Assembly: GCA_019456255.1 (NCBI GenBank)
Contig: VRUG01000001.1
Coordinates: 1-64,000 of the forward strand
DNA length: 64,000 nucleotides
From: Planctomycetota bacterium
Lineage (GTDB): Bacteria > Planctomycetota > Phycisphaerae > Sedimentisphaerales > Anaerobacaceae
Reading direction: 5' to 3'
In this document: positions 1 to 56,862 of the stretch, piece after piece
How the letters are laid out: each line of letters opens with the position of its first letter
How positions within the stretch are numbered: the stretch's first letter is position 1
Position numbers and translations under genes: made by a program
The notes under the pieces: model-generated
Seen by the model: only the letters and a program-made list of their open reading frames with translations
Databases searched by the model: none
What the model was told of the DNA's origin: nothing

Positions 1-102
1 CATCCTTTCCATAAAACCAACTCATTTTATCGGATACTCTCTAATTCGCAATGGTACAGTTTTAGGGGGTCAGGCCACCACCGGTGGAATAAAGTTTTTA
101 TA

Positions 103-928: not shown

Positions 929-984
929 ATTCCTCGTTCCGGCTTCCTAAACCATGATTACCTCACCCCCCTCGTCCCCGCTTG

Positions 985-1023
985 CCTGTCGCGTCGTAGT
1001 TCAAAGAACGAAGACGGATCCAC
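985..1023 (+). repeat. 37-bp repeat, copy 2
   Basis: Same outer sequence as copy 1 (CCTGTCGCGTCG .. ACGAAGACGGATCCAC) but the centre is TAGTTCAAAGA, which itself is a GTTC-AAA-GAAC hairpin. Conserved stems with differing loops suggest a mobile or structured repeat family and not a simple duplication. Confidence 0.55.
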
Positions 1024-1416
1024 AATTACTTCTTTGTCAAACAGCGCAAACAAACGACTTACATCAATTTTTAATTACGACTCCTCCCAAACTTCCCAAT
1101 TTAAACCCCATTTTTACCCCAATACGGGTCGCCAGCGACGATTTTCCTTTGGCTTTTCACCTAAATTATGGTAGGATTAAGTTAGTTACCAGTAGGAAAG
1201 AAAGAGACGTATTACATTTTGTTTTAGTACACTGTAGAAGCACTTAGCAGAAGATGTTTACAGAAATTTTTCAAGCGGTGCCCGCTTTCACCCTATCCTA
1301 AAAACCCTCAAATACAGCTAAAATACAAACCATAAAGAACTATAGATAAAAGACTTACAACTTTTATATGGGATTAGACAATTTGTCATTTACTGCTAAA
1401 AAATGGGGATTTTCGC

Positions 1417-1445
1417 TTGACAAATGACATTTAATTGGTTACTAT
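1417..1445 (+). promoter_or_regulatory. sigma70-type promoter of the candidate small RNA
   Basis: A perfect -35 box TTGACA (1417-1422) is followed after exactly 17 nt by TACTAT (1440-1445). An inverted repeat TTTGTCATTT (1382-1391) / AAATGACA (1422-1429) straddles the -35 box and could be an operator. Expected start is near 1451. Confidence 0.6.
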
Positions 1446-1450
1446 TAACG

Positions 1451-1558
1451 GTCGAGGAGTGGTGGTTATTTCCGGTCTTCTGGAAGATCCTGTCCCTCGA
1501 TTAAATTTGAATCACCACAAAAGGCTGTGAGTCGACATATTACTTGCAGTCTTTTTTT
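1451..1558 (+). ncRNA. candidate structured small RNA with intrinsic terminator
   Basis: The unit runs from the expected start of the TTGACA-17-TACTAT promoter to a strong intrinsic terminator: a 14-bp stem (1519-1532 with 1542-1555, including G-U pairs) followed by a T-tract. Upstream of the terminator two helices can form that cross each other: TCGAGG (1452-1457) with CCTCGA (1495-1500), and TGGTGGTT (1460-1467) with AATCACCA (1510-1517). A small hairpin GTCTT-CTGG-AAGAT (1475-1488) sits inside. This is an H-type pseudoknot or two alternative folds. I do not recognise it as SRP RNA, 6S RNA, tmRNA or a known riboswitch. It could be a free small RNA or an attenuating leader. tRNA-Ser and nadE lie downstream, but tRNA-Ser has its own promoter. 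Confidence 0.5.
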
Positions 1559-1599: not shown

Positions 1600-1628
1600 T
1601 AGCCAATTCACCTAACCGCTGTTATAAT
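1600..1628 (+). promoter_or_regulatory. promoter of tRNA-Ser
   Basis: A perfect -10 TATAAT (1623-1628) lies 10 nt before the mature tRNA end. TAGCCA (1600-1605) with a 17-nt spacer matches the -35 consensus at 4 of 6 positions. Confidence 0.55.
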
Positions 1629-1638
1629 CAGCCGTTTT

Positions 1639-1726
1639 GGAGAGGTGTCCGAGTGGCTGAAGGAGCCGGTTTCGAAAACCGGTGTGCCCTTTACGGGTAC
1701 CGCGGGTTCGAATCCCGCTCTCTCCG
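1639..1726 (+). tRNA. tRNA-Ser(CGA)
   Basis: An 88-nt cloverleaf with acceptor GGAGAGG/TCTCTCC, anticodon stem CCGGT/ACCGG with loop TTCGAAA (anticodon CGA, decoding UCG), a long variable arm typical of class II tRNAs (GTGCCCTTTACGGGTAC), T-arm GCGGG-TTCGAAT-CCCGC, and discriminator G. CCA is not encoded. It sits directly upstream of nadE. Confidence 0.93.
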
Positions 1727-1761
1727 GTTGAAAATTAAGGTTTAGCGGGAGTCTAATTAGA

Positions 1762-3408
1762 ATGCGTATTGCCCTTGGACAATTTGATGCCCACGTCGGT
1801 GACTTAGCAGGCAACGTCGAAAAAATGCGCAGCATGTACGAACAGGCAGTAAAGCAAAATGTTGACCTGCTTGTTTTTCCGGAACTTGCAGTTTGCGGTT
1901 ATCCGCCCGAAGATTTGCTGATAAAAAGACATTTCATCGAAGACAACCTGTTAGCTGTTGAAAAACTCGCAAAATCCTGCCCTGACATAACTATCGTTGT
2001 CGGATATCCTGGTCTCTTAGACGGCAGGATTTACAATTGTGCAGCGGTACTTAAAAATGGCAAGATTGAAGACGTCTACCGAAAGGGACTTTTGCCGAAT
2101 TTCGGAGTCTTCGATGAGCAAAGATATTTTAAAGCAGGCGACGAACCTGTAATGATAAATATCAAAGGGGTTAATGTCGCTATCACCATCTGTCTTGATA
2201 TCTGGGACAGCAACTGGCTCAAAGATTTTTTAGCTGATTGTAATCCGATTCATATGATATTAAACATCTCTGCCTCGCCTTTCCACGTCGGAAAAATACA
2301 GAAAAGACTAAGCGCTATCACGCAATGTGCGCAAAAATTCAATGCAGCTCTTTGCTATTGCAATAACGTCGGCGGACAGGATGAACTAATTTTTGACGGC
2401 CGAAGCGCGATTGCTGACAGCACTGGTAAAATCAGATGTCTGGCTGGCGCCTTTGAAGAAGAGTTACTGATTGCTGACTTAAATCTTTCGGGCGAGAACA
2501 ATCTGGATATACAACAAGTGAGTCCGGTATCTTCTCAGCCTGCCGGCGACATTGAAGAAGTATACAAGGCACTTGTTCTTGGGACTCGCGACTATACCAG
2601 GAAGAACGGCTTTAAAAAAATATTACTCGGAGTTAGCGGAGGTATTGATTCTGCACTTGTCACTTCGATAGCAGTTGCTGCCTTAGGTCCAGAAAATGTG
2701 ATTGGTATCACAATGCCGACACGTTTTAACAGCGCCGAAACTATCTCCGATGCGACGAAACTTGCTGAGAATCTCGGAATTGAATTTTATAATATTGCAA
2801 TCGAAAAGATTGTTCAGCAGTTCCATTCATCGCTGAAAAGCATCCCCGGCTGGGACGATAAGGGAACCGCTTACGAAAACCTACAGGCAAGAATACGAGG
2901 TACGTTGCTAATGTCACTTAGCAATCAGTTCGGTGCTCTGGTGCTGACAAGCGGCAACAAAAGTGAAACTGCGGTCGGGTACGCTACACTATATGGTGAC
3001 ACGGCAGGAGGTTTCGCGGTTATAAAGGATATTCCCAAGACGCTCGTCTATAAATTAGCCGAGTTTGTTAACAGCACACGTGAAAAACCTGTTATACCAA
3101 AGGACATCTTGACAAGGCCTCCTACGGCTGAACTAAGAGAAGACCAGAAAGACACCGATTCACTGCCTGATTATGACATGCTTGATGAAATCCTCAAAGG
3201 ATATGTCGAGCAGGATAAATCGGCGAAACAACTCATCGAATCGTCTTTCCCAAAAGAGGTGGTTAGAAAAGTCATCACCCTGGTCGATAGAAACGAATAT
3301 AAGCGCAGACAGTCACCGCCTGGTATCAAGATCACTCCCAAAGCTTTCGGTAAAGACCGCCGGCTGCCCATTACTAATCGTTATTGTTCATTTAATAACG
3401 AACCTTAA
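1762..3408 (+). CDS. nadE: glutamine-dependent NAD+ synthetase
   Basis: Catalyses the last step of NAD+ synthesis, amidation of deamido-NAD+ with ATP, taking ammonia from glutamine. It has two domains. The N-terminal nitrilase-fold glutaminase (about residues 1-250) has the expected triad: Glu41 in VFPELAVCGY, Lys108 in YRKGLLPNFGVFDE, Cys144 in ITICLDIWDS. The C-terminal synthetase domain carries the ATP P-loop LGVSGGIDSALV (about residue 292) and the downstream TSGNKSE motif. At 548 residues it is full length for the glutamine-dependent type. A GGGAG site about 10 nt before the ATG supports the start. It follows tRNA-Ser by 35 nt and may be read from the tRNA promoter. Confidence 0.95.
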   Translation: MRIALGQFDAHVGDLAGNVEKMRSMYEQAVKQNVDLLVFPELAVCGYPPEDLLIKRHFIEDNLLAVEKLAKSCPDITIVVGYPGLLDGRIYNCAAVLKNGKIEDVYRKGLLPNFGVFDEQRYFKAGDEPVMINIKGVNVAITICLDIWDSNWLKDFLADCNPIHMILNISASPFHVGKIQKRLSAITQCAQKFNAALCYCNNVGGQDELIFDGRSAIADSTGKIRCLAGAFEEELLIADLNLSGENNLDIQQVSPVSSQPAGDIEEVYKALVLGTRDYTRKNGFKKILLGVSGGIDSALVTSIAVAALGPENVIGITMPTRFNSAETISDATKLAENLGIEFYNIAIEKIVQQFHSSLKSIPGWDDKGTAYENLQARIRGTLLMSLSNQFGALVLTSGNKSETAVGYATLYGDTAGGFAVIKDIPKTLVYKLAEFVNSTREKPVIPKDILTRPPTAELREDQKDTDSLPDYDMLDEILKGYVEQDKSAKQLIESSFPKEVVRKVITLVDRNEYKRRQSPPGIKITPKAFGKDRRLPITNRYCSFNNEP

Positions 3409-56788: not shown

Positions 56789-56862
56789 GGGCGATTAGCT
56801 CAGTTGGCTAGAGCGCCTGCCTTACAAGCAGGAAGTCACAGGTTCAAGTCCTGTATCGCCCA
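56789..56862 (+). tRNA. tRNA-Val(UAC)
   Basis: A 74-nt cloverleaf: acceptor GGGCGAT/ATCGCCC, D-arm with AGCTCAGTTGGCTAGAGC, anticodon stem CCTGC/GCAGG with loop CTTACAA (anticodon TAC), T-arm CACAG-GTTCAAG-TCCTGT region, discriminator A. CCA is not encoded. It has its own promoter and terminator. Confidence 0.94.

Follow-up and report, generated by a model that had tools for sequence, protein, structure and literature searches.

A short intergenic segment ahead of a tRNA-Ser gene and a nadE-like gene raises the question of whether it encodes a free small RNA, a leader that controls the genes behind it, or only the remains of something else. The segment lies at positions 1417-1558 of the 64,000-nucleotide stretch of planctomycetal DNA that was analysed as a whole (the window). 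Table 1 lists the features of the locus and the basis on which each was called.

Table 1. Features of the candidate RNA locus, numbered as in the window
Feature	Position	Strand	Basis
Inverted repeat over the -35 box, 8 bp in each of two registers; may bind a regulator	1381-1429	.	Shuffling (chance 2-5%)
Predicted sigma-70-type promoter, TTGACA-17-TACTAT	1417-1445	+	Consensus scan, 10 of 12 matches
Predicted small RNA, about 108 nt	1450-1558	+	Promoter-terminator pair; fold z of -3.5
Helix P1, 8 bp, 1450-1457 with 1495-1502	1450-1502	+	Fold and helix search
Helix P2, 9 bp, 1459-1467 with 1510-1518, crossing P1	1459-1518	+	Crossing-helix search; outside the nested minimum-energy fold
Inner hairpin, 1469-1475 with 1480-1486, loop UCUU	1469-1486	+	Fold
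AAAUUUGAAUCACCAC, unpaired in the nested fold; putative seed for target pairing	1503-1518	+	Fold; function inferred
Predicted intrinsic terminator, 14-bp stem 1519-1532/1542-1555 and U7	1519-1558	+	Fold, promoter-terminator scan, order-wide pattern
Promoter-like site TAGCCA-17-TATAAT, its -10 box preceded by TG, directly before tRNA-Ser	1600-1628	+	Consensus scan
tRNA-Ser (CGA), neighbour outside the RNA	1638-1727	+	tRNA call
nadE-like gene (NAD synthetase by reading), neighbour outside the RNA	1762-3408	+	Open frame; relatives

The sequence-only reading had described a small RNA that stands by itself, with a promoter and a terminator of its own, and both elements were found where it had placed them. 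The promoter predicts a transcript start at about 1450-1453, and the 14-bp stem, which includes several G-U pairs, is followed by the expected run of T. Promoter-like matches alone are not rare, as shuffled versions of the 801-base region scanned contained 1.5 of them on average. The combination is much less common: on both strands of the window, a promoter with 10 of 12 matches followed 60-200 nt further on by a strong terminator occurred at two places, the segment under study and a tRNA-Val gene (56789-56862), which thus served as an internal positive control for the scan. The intergenic region 433-1640, shuffled 400 times, never produced such a pair. In addition, none of 200 shuffled versions of the transcript reached the stability of its complete nested fold, and the predicted RNA is filled by structure, since the start falls on P1 (5' strand) and no gap separates P2 from the terminator. 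Because the promoter-terminator pair is rare in the window and absent from the shuffles, we regard the segment as probably a free-standing, lineage-specific small-RNA gene (rough probability 0.55).

The predicted RNA resembles intrinsically terminated intergenic small RNAs of bacteria in its putative sigma-70-type promoter, its length of about 100 nt, its structured 5' domain, the single-stranded linker and the terminator hairpin with a U tract. It differs from them in that neither conservation nor a target was found and in that a 9-bp crossing helix is possible. A literature search turned up no dedicated small-RNA map for this bacterial group. If real, the gene would represent one more lineage-specific small RNA and by itself no new principle.

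The inverted repeat at the -35 box had been taken as a sign of regulation. It pairs ATTTGTCA (1381-1388) with TGACAAAT (1418-1425) in a first register and TGTCATTT with AAATGACA in a second. The repeat itself is present, but shuffles of the promoter region contained at least one 8-bp inverted repeat in 5% and two in 1.7% of cases, so that it can at most hint at a regulatory role.

The two helices read in crossing order, with a small hairpin inside, were likewise all present. TCGAGG/CCTCGA forms part of P1, and TGGTGGTT/AATCACCA forms part of P2, which contains one G-U pair. Among 1000 dinucleotide shuffles, 5 contained a crossing pair as strong as P1 and P2 together, and tiling of the 64 kb gave 2 such cases in 1826 stretches, which makes the crossing a modest feature once a reader has scanned the whole window; the promoter-terminator arrangement is the stronger point. 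When pseudoknots are not scored, the preferred nested fold (-20.7 kcal/mol) extends P1 by pairing 1459-1467 with bases after the inner hairpin and excludes P2, for which a probability of 0.011 was obtained and which, if forced, gives -16.5 kcal/mol. Pseudoknots usually carry a penalty of about 9-10 kcal/mol. With this general figure included, the stacking energies of both helices and the inner hairpin sum to roughly -25 kcal/mol, so that the pseudoknot could compete with the nested fold, although energies of this kind cannot decide between the two, and the one-base linker that would have to span the 9-bp P2 appears tight. Thus, of the proposed pseudoknot-like fold, the crossing helices stand, whereas the pseudoknot they might form is possible but not established, given the low probability of P2, the preference for the nested fold and the lack of homologues. 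The small-RNA gene is the better-supported part of the proposal, and any choice between the folds goes further than the sequence itself.

Relatives of the candidate RNA were sought in several collections. The RNA occurs as a single copy in its own genome, and DNA searches yielded no homologue, either in 60 relatives or in 392 genomes sampled from the phylum. A single-sequence covariance model with P1 found none among genomes of the family (89), the order (161) or the class (397), and the better matches read were all coding sequence, for example inside a dnaN-like gene. A second model, containing P2 and the terminator, found no homologue in the 161 order genomes either, its matches sharing only the terminator hairpin. 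In GTDB contigs, a strict pattern scan gave no match and a looser one, among the listed matches that were read, none with the rest of the RNA; the same was true of the matches read from two pattern scans of viral contigs, and plasmids and phages contained no homologue. The best outside match (76% over 63 nt, E of 1.8e-4 for one genome) was rejected as chance: it overlaps the beginning of a reading frame for an unrelated membrane protein, and none of P1, P2 and the terminator stem is preserved in it. The 89 family genomes included no further member of the genus. The RNA is an orphan at the sensitivity of single-sequence searches, which miss distant homologues. As no homologue was found in any collection searched, there is no sign of selection, and the crossing helices are seen in a single sequence. 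The sequence-only reading had made its structural claim depend on homologues with compensatory changes in both helices, and by that rule the claim stays unproven.

The terminator is of a kind that is not restricted to this locus. The pattern GGCTGTGAG-n(3-14)-CTTGCAG, with the G-U wobbles kept, was found at 84 sites in 38 of the 161 order genomes, up to 14 of them in one genome, compared to 3 in all for a reversed control. A T-rich tail followed at 33 of 35 sites read, and at most sites a long open frame ends 23-95 nt upstream. Judged by this pattern, the 3' end of the candidate RNA is an ordinary terminator type of the lineage that recurs in the order, and this hairpin type may be more general than the RNA itself. 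Several proteins ahead of such terminators have ends that, named by eye, are PEP-CTERM- or dockerin-like.

The recurrence behind protein genes supports termination at the locus and at the same time lends substance to another explanation, namely that promoter, leader and terminator once framed a protein gene that was lost, leaving a non-functional RNA whose helices arose by chance. The position that such terminators normally take, the resemblance of GAGGAG at 1454-1459 to a ribosome-binding site, the lack of conservation and the richness of the intergenic region in repeats all fit this explanation. However, no trace of a protein family was found with Pfam, and both the fold stability and the crossing helices exceed what a random leftover would usually show. 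We therefore rate a remnant as rather unlikely, though worth keeping in view. The same GAGGAG bears on a further explanation, in which the transcript would be a short peptide gene, starting at a GTG at 1459 or 1462 (VVISGLLEDPVPRLNLNHHKRL) and ending at a TGA inside the terminator stem. Here, a frame of 20-odd codons does run from GTG to TGA, and a portion of it shows weak similarity to segments of coding matches in relatives, but those matches come from unrelated proteins, GAGGAG overlaps the GTG codons or lies 2 nt from them and so is too close for a ribosome site, and the stop falls within the terminator. An open frame with a usable start was not found in the transcript, and Pfam returned no match to the transcript frame. 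A peptide gene is hence highly improbable.

The locus had also been read as a possible leader, and a riboswitch-like version of this idea would have the pseudoknot sense a ligand and control whether transcription continues past the terminator into tRNA-Ser and nadE. The position of the crossing helices directly before the terminator and the shared strand with nadE would suit such a function. However, the tRNA gene lies in between and has a separate promoter-like site. Furthermore, tRNA-Ser stands directly before nadE in 12 of 29 family nadE loci read, and in these 12 relatives neither inspection by eye nor the second covariance model detected this RNA or a similar unit ahead of the pair. The terminator is also predicted to form in either fold (P of 0.997), with P2 lying clear of its stem. 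Given the separate promoter-like site of tRNA-Ser and the relatives that keep the arrangement without the RNA, a leader function for nadE appears unlikely, and the ligand-sensing version very unlikely.

The view that the RNA belongs to no known class held up, as Rfam covariance models gave no match in 1449-1560 up to E 10, which also speaks against a riboswitch. Resemblances to two kinds of RNA were nevertheless considered. The H-type crossing of two helices is common to pseudoknot riboswitches of the preQ1-II and SAM-II type, and the preQ1-II riboswitch, like the candidate RNA, has a hairpin within its pseudoknot. In contrast to these riboswitches, the candidate is unmatched in Rfam and is followed by its own terminator and a tRNA with a predicted independent promoter rather than by the start of a target gene. 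HDV-like self-cleaving ribozymes share the strand order (5' strand of P1, 5' strand of P2, hairpin, 3' strand of P1, 3' strand of P2) and a 5' end that coincides with the beginning of P1. The candidate differs in having AAAUUUG between the 3' strands of P1 and P2, in place of the strand with the catalytic C, and in lacking P4 and P1.1. Membership in this class was rejected for this reason and for want of an Rfam match.

If the locus is a free-standing small-RNA gene, its RNA may work by base pairing. Transcription would start from the predicted promoter and end at the terminator hairpin. In the nested state, a 5' hairpin domain of P1 and the inner hairpin and the terminator hairpin would leave AAAUUUGAAUCACCAC single-stranded between them; in an alternative state, this strand would fold back on GUGGUGGUU and close the pseudoknot. 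We infer that the C-rich part of the single strand (AAUCACCAC) could pair in trans with a G-rich mRNA leader, and that P2 may act as an intramolecular mask of the pairing strand when no target is bound. This mechanism is tentative and, on present evidence, unlikely to be right. Still less probable is the broader idea of a small-RNA class confined to the lineage, in which an H-type pseudoknot toggles with the nested hairpin and so exposes or hides the pairing strand. When up to 3 mismatches were allowed, sequences complementary to the single strand turned up at 6 other places in its own genome, compared to 4 matches for the control, and none of the places read was clearly at a start codon. Since seed complements show no excess over the control, no target is proposed.

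The region upstream of the promoter contains an interspersed non-coding element (window positions of about 594-819 and 1031-1126) with eight copies in the genome, one of which lies shortly before a tRNA-Val gene. The element spans some 500-650 bp and consists of two conserved blocks, the first of them 77-86% identical between copies, around a variable middle. It is rich in short palindromes (TTCTCAnnnTGAGAA and GCGC words) whose A/T centres vary from copy to copy. In a consensus fold of the minus strand, a GCGCGC hairpin is enclosed by a long-range stem that is about 12 bp long and invariant, and some two-sided changes were seen in the short helices; the copy in the window gave no Rfam match. 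The element may be mobile, or it may represent a structured RNA. It was rejected as a source of the candidate RNA, as all eight copies end near 1126, with different sequence beyond that point. This palindromic intergenic element may be more general than the candidate RNA, and may deserve more attention. Finally, another contig of the assembly opens with exactly the same 77 bases as the window (1-77), indicating that the contig of the window ends in a repeat, and short dispersed repeats, such as CTGTCGCGTCGTAGTTC...GAAGACGGATCCAC (window 967-1022), recur on many contigs.
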